Shown here piece after piece: positions 44,701 through 56,762 of a DNA stretch of 64,000 nucleotides. Position numbers and translations under genes: made by a program. This DNA comes from a virus, in IMG/VR virus record IMGVR_UViG_3300023174_000040, positions 62,001 through 126,000 of that record, one strand, 5' to 3'. Numbering within the stretch: the first letter of the stretch is position 1; every line of letters begins with the position of its first letter. Below the pieces are notes generated by a model. The model made no database searches. It was not told the origin of the DNA and was given only the letters and a program-made list of their open reading frames with translations.

Positions 44701-44766
44701 ACAAAAGCAGAACCAAAATGATATCTGACTATCAAGTTGAAGCTGAAATAGAGCCGTGAGGTGAAA

Positions 44767-45645
44767 ATGACTAGTTACTCAGAAAAATATCACCAGTTCA
44801 TCTCAAACGTTACTTATGAGGATGTTGATTGTTTCATTAAAAATGGAACTATGATTAATGGGGAAAAGCCCAACAATATTCAAAAGATAGCTTTGTTTTC
44901 AATTATTAAGACAGAACCATATTATGCTTACTGCTATGCTAGGGATGTAATTAAAGACCGGTGGATTGAAGTTGAAGAAATCATAAAGAATAGCCGTCCA
45001 GAATATATCCATCATTATGCCAAAGATGTTATCAAGGGACGGTGGATTGAGTGCGAAGAGATTATCAAGAGTGATCCCCAGTATGCTTATCTTTATTCCA
45101 GAGATGTAATTAAAAATCGTTGGAATGAAGCAGAAGAGATTATTAAGACTGACCCATATTATGCCTATCTCTATGCTAGAGATATAATTAAAGATCGCTG
45201 GATTGAAGCAGAAAAAATTATTAAAACTAGTCCTGCATATGTTTACTATTACACCAAAGATGTCCTAAAAGATAGATGGATTGAAGCTGAGAGAGTTCTA
45301 ATCCACTATATGTATCTTTACGCCAAAGATATAATTAAAGGCAGATGGATCGAATCAGAAGGGATTATTAAAACTGATCCACGATATGCCTATTATTATG
45401 CTAGAGACGTAATCGAAGGTCGCTGGGTTGACGCAGAAGAAACCATAAAAACTAGTCCAGAGTATGCCTGTGGTTACGCTAAAGATGTAATTAAAGGAAG
45501 ATGGATTGAAGCAGAAGAAGTCATCAAGACTAGTCCAGAATTTCTTTATCAATATGCAGTCGAAGTAATCAAAGGAAGATTATCAGAAGAACTTGAAAGT
45601 GTTTTTGAAACACTCGAGTTTCCTTCCGGTACGGTTGGAGAGTAG
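44767..45645 (+). CDS. Tandem-repeat solenoid protein (YAxxYARDVIKGRWxEAEEIIK repeats)
   Basis: 292 residues from ATG 44767 (RBS GAGGTG). Residues about 45-285 contain nine or ten repeats of about 25 residues of the form (D/S)P.YAY.YA(R/K)DVIK(G/D)RW.EAE.IIK. Invariant Trp, Arg and Tyr positions suggest paired helices stacked in a solenoid, similar in concept to Sel1 or TPR arrays but with a distinct consensus. A related half-repeat lies in the gene at 62478. The last codons (FPSGTVG) are a GGTACGGT motif. Probably a protein-interaction scaffold. Confidence 0.7.
   Translation: MTSYSEKYHQFISNVTYEDVDCFIKNGTMINGEKPNNIQKIALFSIIKTEPYYAYCYARDVIKDRWIEVEEIIKNSRPEYIHHYAKDVIKGRWIECEEIIKSDPQYAYLYSRDVIKNRWNEAEEIIKTDPYYAYLYARDIIKDRWIEAEKIIKTSPAYVYYYTKDVLKDRWIEAERVLIHYMYLYAKDIIKGRWIESEGIIKTDPRYAYYYARDVIEGRWVDAEETIKTSPEYACGYAKDVIKGRWIEAEEVIKTSPEFLYQYAVEVIKGRLSEELESVFETLEFPSGTVGE
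45617..45635 (+). promoter_or_regulatory. GGTACGGT motif at gene end
   Basis: Reads AGTTTCCTTCCGGTACGGT, inside the last codons of the repeat gene and 43 bases before the start at 45679. Followed by GGAG...CTCC. Confidence 0.6.
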
Positions 45646-46401: not shown

Positions 46402-47328
46402 ATGTCAAAGGAAAGTGCAACAAAGAAGAAGTGTCCCACTTGCGGCAAGGGCATTTCAAGCAAGAAGATTGCAGATAGCCTAATGCCAGATAGCCTGACA
46501 AGTCTTGGGACTGTTGCTAGGCTCAATAAAGATCTCACTAATAAGATCAAGACCCTCACCAAGGATGAAGTGAGGTATATTGTCGATTACTATTATATGA
46601 TTCAAGAGAATCGTAAGCGAAGCACTAATCAGATCACCGCTTTTGGCAAGGATAAAGAGCCTCATGAACTCTTTAGTTTCTTGAACGATCAAACAGAAGT
46701 TCTTGAAACTCAAATCAAACGGGCTATGGATCACTGGACTGATAGTTTTTTGATTGCAAAGATTTTGAAGGATAAGGTTTACGGAATCGGTCCTGTGATT
46801 ACTGCTGGTCTTGTTGCTCATATTGACATCAATAAGGCAAAGACCGCTGGTGCTATTTGGCGTTATGCTGGTCTTGATCCCACAAGTAAGTGGGAAAAGG
46901 GTCAAAAGCGTCCCTGGAACGCCAGCCTTAAAACCCTGTGCTGGAAGGTTGGACAGAGTTTCATGAAGTTCTCTGGTAAGGAAGAGTGCTTCTATGGTAA
47001 GCTTTACAAGTCCCAGAAGGAGTTTCTTGTAAAAAAGAACCTTGAAGGCGGATTCAAGGAACTTGCTGATTCTGTCTTGAATTCAAAGAACTTCAAGAAC
47101 AAGGAAGTTATCGCTAAGTATAAGAGTGGAATTCTGCCAGATGGTCATGTGGATGCTATGGCAAGGCGTTGGGTGGTTAAGTTGTTCCTGAGTAATGTCC
47201 ATGAACTTTGGTGCAAGGTTGAGGGAATTGATTGCCCCAAGCCTTATGTCATGGCTCATTTGGGACACACCCATCATATCATTCAGCCAAATCTTTTGGA
47301 TATTGATGAGTATTTGAAGAAGGATTAA
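46402..47328 (+). CDS. IS110-type transposase C-terminal domain protein
   Basis: 308 residues. The segment DKVYGIGPVITAGLVAHIDINKAKTAGAIWRYAGLDPT ... ASLKTLCWKVGQSFMKF matches the helix-hairpin-helix and catalytic-serine region typical of IS110-family transposases, but the N-terminal DEDD RuvC-like domain is absent. Instead the start has a zinc knuckle, KKCPTCGKG. Codon use resembles the motif-controlled phage genes, suggesting a domesticated protein. Possible DNA-binding role in recombination or replication. Confidence 0.6.
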   Translation: MSKESATKKKCPTCGKGISSKKIADSLMPDSLTSLGTVARLNKDLTNKIKTLTKDEVRYIVDYYYMIQENRKRSTNQITAFGKDKEPHELFSFLNDQTEVLETQIKRAMDHWTDSFLIAKILKDKVYGIGPVITAGLVAHIDINKAKTAGAIWRYAGLDPTSKWEKGQKRPWNASLKTLCWKVGQSFMKFSGKEECFYGKLYKSQKEFLVKKNLEGGFKELADSVLNSKNFKNKEVIAKYKSGILPDGHVDAMARRWVVKLFLSNVHELWCKVEGIDCPKPYVMAHLGHTHHIIQPNLLDIDEYLKKD

Positions 47329-47536: not shown

Positions 47537-47848
47537 ATGAATAAAAAGTTAAATTTTTTTAAAGATTTCACTTTAGGCGATGTCCTAAACAGTATAAATG
47601 AAAAATTTTTAGTTGATATGTCTAAAGATGAAGAAGAATACTTTCTCTGCCAAATAGAAATAGATAAAGTCGAACAGAATGATGTTGGAATTTTTGATGG
47701 AAAAAATTGTATGCGTTGTCTTTCCTCAAAAGATGTTCTTAAATTAATTGATCATATTTTAACAAAAGTCAAGAGTGAACCAGGTTTCTTGATTTTAACA
47801 TGCGTCATGAGTGAACCAGAAGCCCAGATAGGTTTATTGATAACATGA
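47537..47848 (+). CDS. Small protein ending in the 36-bp repeat
   Basis: 103 residues. The first 70 are an ordinary small phage protein (FKDFTLGDVLNSINEKFLVDMSKDEEEYFLCQIEID). The C-terminus is encoded by two units of the 36-bp repeat (47755-47818), read as ILT.V.SEP. This looks like repeat DNA captured at the gene end, or the source of the array at 50185. Confidence 0.55.
   Translation: MNKKLNFFKDFTLGDVLNSINEKFLVDMSKDEEEYFLCQIEIDKVEQNDVGIFDGKNCMRCLSSKDVLKLIDHILTKVKSEPGFLILTCVMSEPEAQIGLLIT
47755..47828 (+). repeat. Two units of the 36-bp-period repeat
   Basis: TATTTTAACA (47755), GAGTGAACCA (47773), GATTTTAACA (47791) and GAGTGAACCA (47809) are spaced exactly 18 bases apart, as in the main array. 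The variable bases next to the last block (gaagccca) are the same as in the array at about 50238. Confidence 0.85.
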
Positions 47849-49140: not shown

Positions 49141-49767
49141 ATGATAAAACAAGCAATGAACGAGTTGTCTATTGAAGAAATTCAAAAAAATTTGAATTTT
49201 ACTGTCCCCAATATCACAGATTTTGTAGAAAAATACAAAAATCATTTTGAAGAATTTCTAAAAGATCCGACAGAACTTGTCACAAAAATAATTCGTGCAA
49301 TAGTGTCTAAAAAAAATTATGAGCATTTAGCAGAAGAATTAGATTTGCCGCCTTCATATGTTTATAGTATTGGCGTAATGATGAAAAATAATTCAGAATT
49401 TATAAAAAATTCTAATTCATTTGAGTCTATGCTTTGTTCTTTTTCAAAAAATATAAATTACGAATCTTTTTTACATTCAACAAAAGCAAAAAAAGAAAGC
49501 GAATTTATAATCAATATTTACAATTTTGAATTTCCAGATTGGTTTGACGAATCTGAACCATTGGTGATAACTTATCCTTGTGATATTTCTAATTACTTTG
49601 AATTACAAGATAATTTACATTTGAGGATTTTTGAAAACAATCATTGGGAATGTCCTTTGAGAAATCAAACTGGAGATAAACATCATTACATTACTGCTGA
49701 AACCAATCTTCAAAAAGAAGAAATGTTGCAATTTTTATTGTTGGGCTGTAAATATTTATTTTATTGA
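49141..49767 (+). CDS. Hypothetical protein with HTH-like segment
   Basis: 208 residues; ATG 49141 adjoins the previous stop, ATG 49156 is an alternative. The stretch KKNYEHLAEELDLPPSYVYSIGVMM resembles a helix-turn-helix. The rest is not recognised. Confidence 0.55.
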   Translation: MIKQAMNELSIEEIQKNLNFTVPNITDFVEKYKNHFEEFLKDPTELVTKIIRAIVSKKNYEHLAEELDLPPSYVYSIGVMMKNNSEFIKNSNSFESMLCSFSKNINYESFLHSTKAKKESEFIINIYNFEFPDWFDESEPLVITYPCDISNYFELQDNLHLRIFENNHWECPLRNQTGDKHHYITAETNLQKEEMLQFLLLGCKYLFY

Positions 49768-49779
49768 GAAGAAAAATTT

Positions 49780-50184
49780 ATGAATATCGGAAAACTTATT
49801 AAAGAAAATCGCAAAAAATTAAATATGACCCAAAAAGAGTTGGCACAAACTCTTGGAATTAGTCATATCACAGTTTGCAGATGGGAAACTAATTTTATAG
49901 TTCCAACAAATTATAACTGGATAGTTCTACAAAATTTATTCGGACTACGAAAAGACAATTTAATAATGCCAACTAAAGGCTTTACACCAGTAAAAGTTAG
50001 AATTATTAAGCCTTTGAAAAAATTCAAGAAAATAAATAAAACCGCTGAAAGAAACAAACAAATTATCGAAAATTATAAAAAAGGAATACCAATAGACAAT
50101 TTAGCAAAATTCTACTCCATAAAGGAAAGTACAATAAAAAGTATTCTACTTAGTCAAAAAATAAAATTAAATGTAAGAGAATAA
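49780..50184 (+). CDS. XRE-family regulator with second HTH
   Basis: 134 residues. The N-terminus (IGKLIKENRKKLNMTQKELAQTLGISHITVCRWETNFIVPT) is a classic Cro/CI-type HTH. The C-terminus (IIENYKKGIPIDNLAKFYSIKESTIKSILLSQKI) is a second, resolvase- or sigma-like HTH. It directly precedes the 36-bp repeat array, which it could in principle bind. Confidence 0.75.
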   Translation: MNIGKLIKENRKKLNMTQKELAQTLGISHITVCRWETNFIVPTNYNWIVLQNLFGLRKDNLIMPTKGFTPVKVRIIKPLKKFKKINKTAERNKQIIENYKKGIPIDNLAKFYSIKESTIKSILLSQKIKLNVRE

Positions 50185-50840
50185 GATTTTGATTCCCAGC
50201 CAGTGGCTGGGATTTTAACAAGAGTCAAGAGTGAACCAGAAGCCCAGATTTTTTCATTTTGCCGGAGTGAACCAACCTGATTGATTTTAACAAGGACGAG
50301 AAGTGAACCATTATTAACGATTTTAACATGAACGTTGAGTGAGTCATCAGACTGGATTTTTACATACTGCCGGAGCGAACCAAGCCCGACGATTTTAACA
50401 AGGTGATCAAGTGAACCAGCGATGGTGATTTTTAACAAAAGAACCATCATTCGATATTTAACAAGGTAGTTGAGTGAACCAATGTGAGAGATTTTGCATG
50501 TATAGTGAGTGAACCTTCGACCCGGATTTTAACACTGATCAAGAGTGAACCTAGCCCTTCGATTTTAACAAGGTAGTTGAGTGAACCACAGTCGGGAATT
50601 TTAACAAATTTGGTGAGTGAACCATCATTCGATATTTTAACAAGGTAGTTGAGTGAACCACAGACCCGGATTTTAAACAGTGATCAACAGTGAACCAATT
50701 TGCTTGATTTTAACAAGGTGAAAGAGTGAACCTAGTGCCGGTATTTTAACAATGTGCGAGAGTGAACCAAATAAGAAGATTTTAACATGATGGTTTAGTG
50801 AACCTAGCTGTGCGATTTTAACAATGTGCGAGAGTGAACC
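50185..50840 (+). repeat. Tandem array with 36-bp period: two conserved 10-mers, two variable 8-mers
   Basis: About 18 units. Each is GATTTTAACA, eight variable bases, GAGTGAACCA, eight variable bases; the two blocks thus alternate every 18 bases. The first seven units from 50211 are exactly in phase; later ones have single-base indels (for example at 50427-50470 and 50500). On the minus strand a unit reads G-S-L-x-x-x-V-K-I-x-x-x, and frames of 98 and 72 codons exist but are broken by the indels. Third codon positions in the blocks are conserved, so DNA- or RNA-level function is possible. Confidence 0.85.
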
Positions 50841-50890
50841 AAAAAATTCTACTTGAAAAAAGTTTAAAAGTGTGTTAAAGTGAAAAACCA

Positions 50891-50909
50891 AGTTTCCCTC
50901 CGGTACGGT
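50891..50909 (+). promoter_or_regulatory. GGTACGGT motif within an inverted repeat
   Basis: Reads AGTTTCCCTCCGGTACGGT. TTCCCTCC pairs with GGAGGGAA just downstream, leaving GGTACGGTT as the loop. Lies after the repeat array and about 115 bases before the start at 51025; that leader contains no other gene. Confidence 0.6.
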
Positions 50910-51381: not shown

Positions 51382-51466
51382 GCTGAAGTGGCGAAACTGG
51401 CGAAACGCAGGGGACTTAAAATCCCCCACATTAGAAACACTGCGGGTTCGAATCCCGCCTTCAGCA
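51382..51466 (+). tRNA. tRNA-Leu(UAA)
   Basis: Uninterrupted: acceptor GCTGAAG/CTTCAGC, anticodon stem GGGGA/TCCCC with loop CTTAAAA (anticodon TAA), a long class II variable arm and T-arm GCGGG-TTCGAAT-CCCGC. Discriminator A, no encoded CCA. Confidence 0.92.
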
Positions 51467-51482
51467 CTGTAAATAAAAACAA

Positions 51483-51842
51483 GGGGGCGTAAAGGTATCG
51501 ACTGGATAAAAAGATTTATAACTGCATGTCGAGGTTAGTCGAACGGCCTCGTTAAAATTCGACTAAAGCCTTAACTGGCACTGTTAATTACGCAATGGCT
51601 GCCTGATAAAAAGGGCAACCACGAATCTAGGAAGCTAATGTTGGATGCGTCCTAAAATTCGTCGTCAAATCCAACTGGTTTTCTGGTGGTCAACTTACCT
51701 GAAAACGAGAAAATAGGTTGAGAGATTTTAAAGACTTTTGTTTATTGTAATCTTTAAAATCTATTTGAACAATAAACCAAACATGTGAAGAAGTTATATT
51801 TTGATTTATTTCAGGACAGGAGTTCGACTCTCCTCGCCTCCA
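51483..51842 (+). ncRNA. ssrA: tmRNA (ssrA)
   Basis: The 5' end GGGGGCG pairs with CGCCTCC at the 3' end, and a T-arm AGGAG-TTCGACT-CTCCT precedes it, forming the tRNA-like domain (GGGGGCGTAAAGGTATCGAC start). The tag frame ends ...NYAMAA before TGATAA (51604-51609); a plausible full tag is ALTGTVNYAMAA from GCC 51568. A long pairing TTAGTCGAA/TTCGACTAA lies just upstream of the tag. About 360 bases. It rescues stalled ribosomes and tags nascent chains. Confidence 0.9.
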
Positions 51843-51867
51843 TTTATAATTTCAACTAAAGGAAAAC

Positions 51868-52827: not shown

Positions 52828-53502
52828 ATGGAACATTTACAACAAAAATATTGTTTTTCATTATTAAAAAAATTCAATATTCCTATTGAAACAATAATAG
52901 ATGTGGGAGTATTTGTTGACACTCCTGTTTTAAGAAGTTTTTTCCCAGATAAAACTCACATATTATTTGAACCAATAGAAGAATTTCGGCCAATTATAGA
53001 AAATACATACAGAGATATTCAACACAAACTTTATAGTTTTCCTTTATATGAAGAAGACTGTGAAGTGAAAATGAAAATTAGTCTTGATGAAAATAAAAAA
53101 ATTAAACATTCAAGAATAACAAAAGAAGATTGTAAAAATTTTCGTGTAATGCAGGCTAAAAAGCTAGATTCAGTACTAAAAGACACCGATTTTAAAAAAC
53201 CTTACTTTCTAAAATTAGATGTCGATGATGCCGAATTAGAAATATTAAAAGGTGCAGTTGAAACTCTAAAATACTGTTCTGTTATACAGATAGAGATGCA
53301 CCCGAGAGATTTTCTGGAACGTTCTAATTTTATAGAACAACATGGTTTTAAATTGTTTGACATAGTGGATAATATTTACTATGAGGGACAATTAAGACAA
53401 TTCGATATGTTTTTTGTAAAAAGAGATATTTTAATAGAATATAATAGAGATTTTGAGAGTATGAAACTATTTGATCCAAATCTGTGGAAATCATTTAGAT
53501 GA
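52828..53502 (+). CDS. FkbM-family methyltransferase
   Basis: 224 residues. FkbM pattern: IIDVGVFVDTPVLRSFFPDKTHILFEPIEEFRPII, then RVMQAKKLDSVLK, PYFLKLDVDDAELEILKGAVETLKYCSVIQIE. These SAM-dependent enzymes usually methylate sugars or glycolipids. With the glycosyltransferases and hld genes it fits a glycan-modifying set. The canonical SAM loop GxNxG is replaced by DVGVFVD. Confidence 0.7.
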   Translation: MEHLQQKYCFSLLKKFNIPIETIIDVGVFVDTPVLRSFFPDKTHILFEPIEEFRPIIENTYRDIQHKLYSFPLYEEDCEVKMKISLDENKKIKHSRITKEDCKNFRVMQAKKLDSVLKDTDFKKPYFLKLDVDDAELEILKGAVETLKYCSVIQIEMHPRDFLERSNFIEQHGFKLFDIVDNIYYEGQLRQFDMFFVKRDILIEYNRDFESMKLFDPNLWKSFR

Positions 53503-55786: not shown

Positions 55787-56116
55787 ATGAACGATATGCT
55801 AAAAGAAAAAATAAGTGAAAAGCCAGTCAGGATGATTGAAAAGGCTTGCTATTTCAATCAAATGAGGTCAGATGGAGACACTTGGCGTATTCATGGCGTT
55901 GTGGATGGAACGGAATTGATGCCTAGTCGCCCAATCGGTTTCGATAAAGATAAAAATATATTCGAAACCAAGAACACAATTTACAAGGTTGTTTCTTGGG
56001 GTACTATGACCAAGTGCATTGACGAAGAATTCTGGAAGCAAGTAGAAGCTGATATTAAAGAGATTAGGCAGCGACTTAATAGCTACCACAATTTAAAAAG
56101 GTTCAGTCTTGATTAA
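55787..56116 (+). CDS. Hypothetical protein
   Basis: 109 residues (MNDMLKEKISEKPVRMIEKACYFNQMRSDGDTWRIHGVVDGTELM ... EEFWKQVEADIKEIRQRL). Beta-rich start and helical end. Overlaps the tilS start by eight bases, so probably coupled to it. Confidence 0.55.
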   Translation: MNDMLKEKISEKPVRMIEKACYFNQMRSDGDTWRIHGVVDGTELMPSRPIGFDKDKNIFETKNTIYKVVSWGTMTKCIDEEFWKQVEADIKEIRQRLNSYHNLKRFSLD

Positions 56117-56762
56117 GATTATCAAAGAAATTGTTTCAAAAGAAACTCATTGCTATGTTGCCGTAAGCATGGGTGTCGATAGCGTATCTTCTTTATTTTG
56201 GTTGAGAAGCAAGGGATACAACATTACTCCATTGCACTTTAATCATAATCTAAGAGAACAGAACCATGCCATGGAAAATAAGTTCCATGAACTTTGTGGT
56301 AAATTAGGATTAAAAGGTATTGTGGGCAGAGGTGAAAACTTAAAAACAGAAAAAGATTGCAGAGATGCCCGCTTAAATTTTTATAAAGAGGTTGTGGATT
56401 ACGAAGGTTATGTAATCACTGCTCATCATCTCAATGATTATGTGGAAAGCTATTTAATTAATTGTTTTCGTGGACAACCCAATCACAATCCTTTTGAATT
56501 AATTAGCGAGTTCGATGGATTCAAGATCATCCATCCTTTTCTATTAAGTAAGAAAAAAGATTTTCAAGAGTACGTTGACAGGAATAAATGGAACTGCTAT
56601 ACTGTGGAGGACGAAACCAATAAGGTTGTCAAAGGAAGCAGAAGAAATTGGATTCGTCAAATAATCATTCCAGAAATGAAAAAACAAAAGTTAAGTCTAG
56701 AAAAATATTGTTCAAGGAGAATTGAAAAGAACTTGAAGAATAAGACGGTAATTCTAGACTAG
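56109..56762 (+). CDS. tilS: TilS-like tRNA(Ile)-lysidine synthetase
   Basis: 217 residues, the minimal N-terminal domain. PP-loop VAVSMGVDSVSSLFWL (SGGxDS type with changed second and third residues), then LHFNHNLRE, ARLNFYKEV, VITAHHLNDYVESYLINCFRG and a C-terminal DETNKVVKGSRRNWIRQIIIPEMKK follow TilS. TilS converts C34 of tRNA-Ile(CAU) to lysidine so that it reads AUA. The TTG start overlaps the previous gene. The next gene, 16 bases on, is a tRNA with a CAU anticodon, the expected substrate. Confidence 0.85.
   Translation: MIKIIKEIVSKETHCYVAVSMGVDSVSSLFWLRSKGYNITPLHFNHNLREQNHAMENKFHELCGKLGLKGIVGRGENLKTEKDCRDARLNFYKEVVDYEGYVITAHHLNDYVESYLINCFRGQPNHNPFELISEFDGFKIIHPFLLSKKKDFQEYVDRNKWNCYTVEDETNKVVKGSRRNWIRQIIIPEMKKQKLSLEKYCSRRIEKNLKNKTVILD

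Follow-up and report, generated by a model that had tools for sequence, protein, structure and literature searches.

A phage array of alternating 10-nt repeats and its Nop-domain partner as a very probable TIGR-TasA system

The stretch of viral DNA analysed here (the window, 64,000 nucleotides) carries an array in which two short repeats alternate around variable 8-mers, and a gene for a Nop-domain protein. With a probability of about 0.95, the array and the gene form a phage-borne TIGR-TasA system of the dual-repeat kind. TIGR (Tandem Interspaced Guide RNA) systems were described in 2025, and in TIGR-Tas a small protein finds matching DNA by means of paired guides (Faure et al. 2025, PMC12045711). 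The locus is a further member of this already known, young system. The identification follows from the dual-repeat grammar of the array, from a Tas gene whose family and fold are those expected, and from the conserved association between such arrays and Tas genes. Within the array, GAGTGAACCA serves as edge repeat and GATTTTAACA as loop repeat, and the 8-mers supply spacers A and B for about 17 tigRNAs.

Structure of the array

The main array lies on the plus strand at 50185–50841 and comprises 18 edge and 18 loop repeats, making about 17 complete edge-to-edge units. Direct parsing of the sequence confirmed the 18 units, the 36-bp period and the alternation of conserved and variable blocks given in the original prediction. 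The loop repeat GATTTTAACA or its near variants occur 18 times within 50211–50823, with the first copy at 50211–50220 and further copies every ~36 bp up to 50814–50823. The edge repeat GAGTGAACCA or its near variants likewise occur 18 times within 50229–50841, from the first intact copy at 50229–50238 to 50832–50841 at the same interval; one copy, near 50438, is degenerate (AAAGAACCA). The two repeats alternate every 18 bp and are separated by spacers of 8 bp, a few being 7 or 9 bp long. A typical guide (50239–50264, plus strand) consists of spacer A GAAGCCCA (50239–50246), a loop repeat and spacer B TTTTGCCG (50257–50264), and the same guide is carried by the related phage G002. Certain 8-mers recur in the array, AGGTAGTT three times and ATGTGCGA and TCATTCGA twice each, just as predicted.

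Conservation is concentrated in the repeats. Across 16 parsed units, information per column amounts to 1.0–2.0 bits in the edge and 1.1–2.0 bits in the loop, against 0–0.2 bits in spacer A and 0.1–0.8 bits in spacer B, which is the pattern of conserved repeats and variable spacers that characterises dual-repeat TIGR arrays. A search of the whole 323,267-base virus record for two blocks separated by eight bases, with up to two mismatches, returned 16 matches on the plus strand and none on the minus strand, and none were obtained for the control pattern read backwards. Two of the 16 fall in a second short piece at 47755–47818 of the window. They belong to an array remnant missed by the original prediction, which comprises two loop and two edge repeats (47755–47845, plus strand) and makes up the last ~30 codons of the ORF at 47537–47848.

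The array had been placed at 50185–50840; it is found there, except that the regular array starts only at 50211. The intervening stretch, 50185–50210, lies right behind the stop codon of an XRE gene and includes a hairpin derived from a degenerate first edge. This hairpin (CCCAGCCAGTGGCTGGG, 50194–50212, plus strand) folds with −14.9 kcal/mol (z −3.2), and an intact edge repeat occupies its place in G002. Across the units the array RNA folds no better than shuffled sequences (z +0.6 to +1.0), which fits a TIGR array of the dual-repeat and not of the stem-loop kind.

A protein-coding repeat, decayed or live, is scarcely credible as an explanation of the array. It would read G-S-L-x-x-x-V-K-I-x-x-x on the minus strand or I-L-T-x-x-x-S-E-P-x-x-x on the plus strand, and it would agree with the period of 36 bp, or 12 codons, and with the remnant at 47755, which closes an ORF in frame. 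However, each of the six frames contains 6 to 22 stops over 632 bp of the window array, and nearly every nucleotide of the repeats is fixed while the spacers are random. An intact minus-strand ORF in relatives, with its protein, had been named as the mark of a coding repeat; stops and indels interrupt the arrays in the 35 regions examined, a few short ones excepted. These observations, together with the frequent indels and with some 100 relatives bearing non-coding arrays, dispose of the decayed repeat gene suggested earlier.

Likeness to known TIGR arrays

TIGR arrays are described as two alternating repeats of 8–12 nt (edge and loop) with two spacers per unit, each of about 9 and sometimes 8 nt, and 36-nt tigRNAs, and are located up- or downstream of tas; the two spacers of SpTIGR together measure 16 nt (PMC12045711). 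With a 10-nt edge, a 10-nt loop, 8-nt spacers and a 36-bp unit, the window array shares with TIGR-Tas of the TasA type (PMC12045711) the alternation of edge and loop, the unit length and the two short variable spacers per unit, as well as its phage-borne location near a Nop-domain protein without a nuclease. It differs in having 18 units, where 5–15 are the most usual (PMC12045711), and in the distance of the main array from tas, 2.9 kb, behind an inserted gene cassette, with the remnant nearer.

The assignment of GAGTGAACCA as the edge is based on its place at the beginning and end of arrays, on its likeness to the closing repeat of the array in Salicola phage CGphi29, and on the inheritance of spacer pairs from edge to edge. 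In G001 (locus L009) the first repeat, GATTGAACCA, stands at the stop codon of tas and the last is GAGTGAACCA, the array of L029 starts with GCGTGAACCA, and the last repeat of the window array is GAGTGAACCA; these three arrays conform to the rule that a TIGR array starts and ends with an edge repeat, which may be truncated.

Several features count against the TIGR-Tas reading. Box D (UG) and box C (CCA) are reported for TasR repeats (PMC12045711), and a dual-repeat array would be expected to have them in both repeats or to have diverged in both together. In the window, by a consensus reading without covariation, the edge has UG..CCA and the loop UU..ACA, a U-A replacing the G-C pair, so that only the edge shows the reported boxes. 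A terminator scan recognised no rho-independent terminator 3′ of the array; such a terminator is typical of TIGR arrays, though not universal (Faure et al. 2025, PMC12045711), and we do not count it among the defining features.

Rfam gave no match to the array, DNA BLAST against phage records gave weak matches only, and a literature search on the array motif gave nothing relevant among the matches listed.

The window locus is like CRISPR-Cas in having repeats and variable spacers in an array that probably gives rise to guides, and unlike it in its two short alternating repeats and 8-nt spacers. No Cas family scored above its cut-off in scans of the genes near the array. The ORF at 49141–49767 matches type V Cas12k (E 0.004, well under the cut-off) and HTH_28 very weakly, and its product is probably a helix-turn-helix protein.

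The Tas protein encoded upstream

The partner of the array is the Tas protein encoded 2.9 kb upstream at 46402–47328 (plus strand). Family searches (NCBIfam), PDB searches and AlphaFold/Foldseek comparison characterise the 308-aa product as a Nop-domain TIGR-associated protein without a nuclease domain. The NCBIfam model NF052498 (TIGR_Tas_endo) matches it with 184.8 bits against a cut-off of 100, and a PDB sequence search finds TasH (1e-16) and TasR (8e-12). In a Foldseek search with the AlphaFold2 model (pLDDT 86.9, built on 33 sequences, residues 1–40 being of low confidence), the top 11 structures are all TasH or TasR, followed by the IS621 recombinase. Tas proteins consist of the Nop domain alone (TasA) or of a Nop domain joined to a nuclease (PMC12045711). 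In the product of 46402–47328 only the Transposase_20/Nop part was matched and neither an HNH nor a RuvC nuclease domain was found, which makes the system a TasA system.

The only relative found by tblastn among isolate phages is Salicola phage CGphi29, the published SpTIGR-TasH locus. It resembles the window in its 10-nt repeats and 8-nt spacers and in its homologous Tas protein (24% identity to window TasA), and is distinguished by an HNH nuclease domain and by its repeats, AAGCGAGCCA and AAGACAACCA. The repeat that closes the CGphi29 array resembles GAGTGAACCA.

PHROGs labels the window protein 'transposase', and the Pfam Transposase_20 model gives a partial match just under its cut-off. 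An identity as IS110 transposase was rejected: the IS110 NCBIfam model attains 26.7 bits, far under the cut-off of 140, and Pfam returns no match to a DEDD domain. The IS110/IS621 RNA-guided recombinases share a related RNA-binding core with the window protein (Transposase_20; Foldseek probability 1.00 to 8wt9); apart from the DEDD domain, they differ in using a single bridge RNA where the window has a guide array.

Related arrays and their association with Tas genes

A first scan of the collection for the order loop-spacer-edge-spacer-loop found L009, on a 187-kb contig and with an array of ~46 units, and L010, on a 251-kb contig, which is the array of G002. A wider scan for two edge repeats ~36 bp apart found at least 119 viral stretches in IMG/VR. 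The search for the array in relatives called for by the original prediction thus yielded arrays with the same edge, and their units and 8-mers were compared. The same edge-pair scan of bacterial and archaeal genomes (257 billion bases) gave 68 matches, three of which had at least 4 units. In these GTDB loci a Tas gene accompanies the real arrays in 3 of 3 cases and is present at none of the 65 chance matches. Three loci (L193, L203 and L209) that possess the same type of array and a Tas gene come from bins of Spirochaetales (two) and Candidatus Yanofskybacteria (one), and may each represent a provirus, a host locus or a misbinned phage. The edge GAGTGAACCA is common to the scanned phages, in part because the scans asked for it, and each phage has a loop repeat of its own (GATTTTAACA, GAGAGTTCCA, AAGAAACCCA, GAAAGTAACA and others).

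Among the matches listed, a Tas gene is present in the fetched flank of 56 of the 87 viral loci with at least 4 units, and the Tas gene and the array occupy the same strand in all 61 comparable loci, at a median distance of 34 bp. This constancy of strand suggests that the array acts as RNA. In the relatives listed, the 90th percentile of the distance to the nearest array is 325 bp, against 2.9 kb in the window. The remoteness of the main array counts against the TIGR-Tas reading and is softened by the remnant, which lies 427 bp from tas.

The array might instead work at the level of DNA: the XRE product or another phage protein would bind it as a series of operators, partition sites or origins, and the spacers would be neutral. 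Its regular spacing and near-invariant 10-mers would suit such a role, as would the HTH gene that ends just upstream. We regard this as very improbable, since the same array in G002 has no adjoining HTH gene, the partner that stays the same from phage to phage is a Tas protein matching the RNA-guided TasH and TasR, the orientation relative to tas is fixed, and spacers are kept between phages even where the loops differ, which is the opposite of neutral. The fixed strand also speaks against the protein-binding array or partitioning site that had been put forward. The XRE product encoded at 49780 is an unlikely partner of the array, given that the G002 array has no XRE gene and that the Tas gene is the constant neighbour across phages.

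Inheritance and re-pairing of guides

Under the TIGR-Tas reading the 8-mers are halves of stored guides, and of the four ideas in the original prediction a variable cassette store came closest, the system being TIGR-Tas. G002, with a Tas protein 99.3% identical to that of the window and flanks 96–98% identical, has identical or nearly identical guides for ~10 of the 16 parsed in the window, the others being new. G001, with a Tas protein 93% identical to that of the window and the same edge and loop consensus, has no guide or half-guide in common with it. Guide turnover is complete within 7% Tas divergence. G001 and G003 (Tas 63% identical) both carry the guide TATCCGCT/ACGGAAAA, and guides common to other phages occur despite loop repeats that differ at several positions; in these cases the guide has persisted longer than its loop.

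Inheritance keeps the edge-to-edge unit together: 10 distinct cases show an edge-spacer A-loop-spacer B unit passed on by itself, its neighbours differing on both sides, and no case shows this for spacer pairs across the edge. Half-spacers are reused with a new partner within arrays. We list 13 such cases, one of them entered twice because G002 and L010 are the same array, against ~0.2 expected by chance per kind of 8-mer identity. The partners of AGGTAGTT, for instance, are TCATTCGA and AGCCCTTC in the window and TCATTCGA and AGCCCGAC in G002. Some spacers occur in several different pairings, which would be surprising if a single site has to match both halves, and we count this against the TIGR-Tas reading.

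We tentatively suggest, as a possibility on the doubtful side of even, that the guides of phage TIGR arrays make up a selected and exchanged two-part population. Through recombination at the repeats, whole units and single half-spacers would pass from array to array or change places inside one, giving new combinations of A and B, and a few guides would persist across diverged Tas proteins and loops through a lasting common target outside their own genome.

Local history of the locus

In the window, tas is followed by the ORF at 47537 with the remnant, a 2.3-kb cassette that includes the XRE gene, and the main array. Positions 47756–47829 agree to 96% with the beginning of the main array in G002, and the G002 homologue of the ORF 47537–47848 has a different C-terminus. 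The window ORF continues directly into this copied array start, which accounts for its last ~30 codons. In G002, ~1.5 kb of other genes separate the homologue of ORF 47537 from the array, and ~1.4 kb lie between the end of the array and the next element common with the window. Gene content thus differs from G002 at both ends of the array, which identifies both ends as breakpoints of gene exchange.

Such a history could also be that of a relic TIGR array, its guides out of use and the locus persisting as a recombination hot spot that swaps gene cassettes. The degenerate state of several edges and loops, the split-off remnant and the change of gene content exactly at both array ends agree with this alternative. 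It is nevertheless unlikely, as the Tas gene is intact and 93–99% identical in the nearest relatives, most repeats are intact, and guides are held in common with the closest relative.

Neighbouring elements

The motif that the array had been said to precede, GGTACGGT, is an element separate from the array. In the form TTTCC[CT]TCCGGTACGGTT (core CGGTACGG) it occurs at 23 places in the 323-kb record, including 50901–50908 of the window, often near gene boundaries. All 23 copies are on the plus strand and none on the other, with 4.9 expected per strand, and the copy that follows the array folds into a hairpin. G002 has the same one-strand family, and G001 and G003 have no such family. The element is a candidate phage promoter or RNA-processing element.

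Proteins with repeats of the type Y-A-R-D-V-I-K-x-R-W-x-E-A-E are encoded near tas or the array in three phages (window 44761–45645; L009 3911–5218; L029 1684–4324). The window protein has no convincing family match in Pfam and PHROGs scans, and these proteins are possibly partners of the system or mobile repeat genes. Directly 3′ of the array, 51382–51845 contains a tRNA-Leu(TAA) and a complete tmRNA with the tag GTVNYAMAA. Further downstream are a putative FkbM-like methyltransferase ORF (52828–53502, assigned by eye, also in G002) and an ORF with a PP-loop motif (56109–56762) that by eye is putatively TilS-like (tRNA-Ile lysidine synthetase).

Searches for targets

Under the published rule, the top strand of a target was expected to show spacer B first and then spacer A in reverse complement, 0–2 bases apart, an order that we deduced from the reported 8-nt 3′ overhangs. 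In 18 phage records, no guide matches its own phage exactly, and matches with 1–2 mismatches stay at the level of shuffles. When every arrangement of spacers within 60 bp was considered for self-targeting, only array residues at distances of 16–20 stood out. Pooled over loci, matches with at most one mismatch number 395, against 282–302 for shuffles and 327–333 for wrong arrangements, a modest excess that is too weak for a claim of targeting. Other TIGR phages yielded no convincing excess of targets, and rival tas genes are not enriched (8 of the 395 matches, for 2% of bases). By analogy with box C/D RNAs, host rRNA and tRNA were searched in E. coli rrnB and its flanks, neighbouring genes included, and no target was found there.

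The guide TATCCGCT/ACGGAAAA has 41 matches in the whole of IMG/VR, as opposed to 23 for the wrong arrangement. Mostly these fall in unrelated genes, where in-frame codons spell T-E-K-A-D or G-K-x-A-D. From these in-frame contexts codon usage is the likelier reason for the excess, and we rejected the matches as real targets.

Proposed function and significance

From characterised TIGR-Tas systems we infer how the locus may work; the silencing step and the class of target are inferences of our own. The array would serve as a store of guides, transcribed rightward. The transcript would be cut inside each GAGUGAACCA edge repeat, giving tigRNAs of ~36 nt in which spacer A, the loop and spacer B stand in this order between two halves of the edge repeat. 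A dimer of TasA would bind each tigRNA, whose spacers A and B would pair with opposite strands of a DNA site of ~16 bp. As TasA has no nuclease, the bound sites would be bent or blocked instead of cut. By analogy with the characterised systems, such tigRNA-guided binding of DNA is probable in the window phage. The most likely use would be the silencing of genes or of replication in a competing mobile element or in the host, and we put the chances that silencing of rivals or host is the purpose of the window system at about even.

The authors of the TIGR-Tas description name the natural targets and the gain of spacers by arrays as open points (PMC12045711). The window locus and its relatives provide comparative material on both, and the widespread edge repeat GAGTGAACCA can serve as a simple DNA marker in searches for TasA loci.
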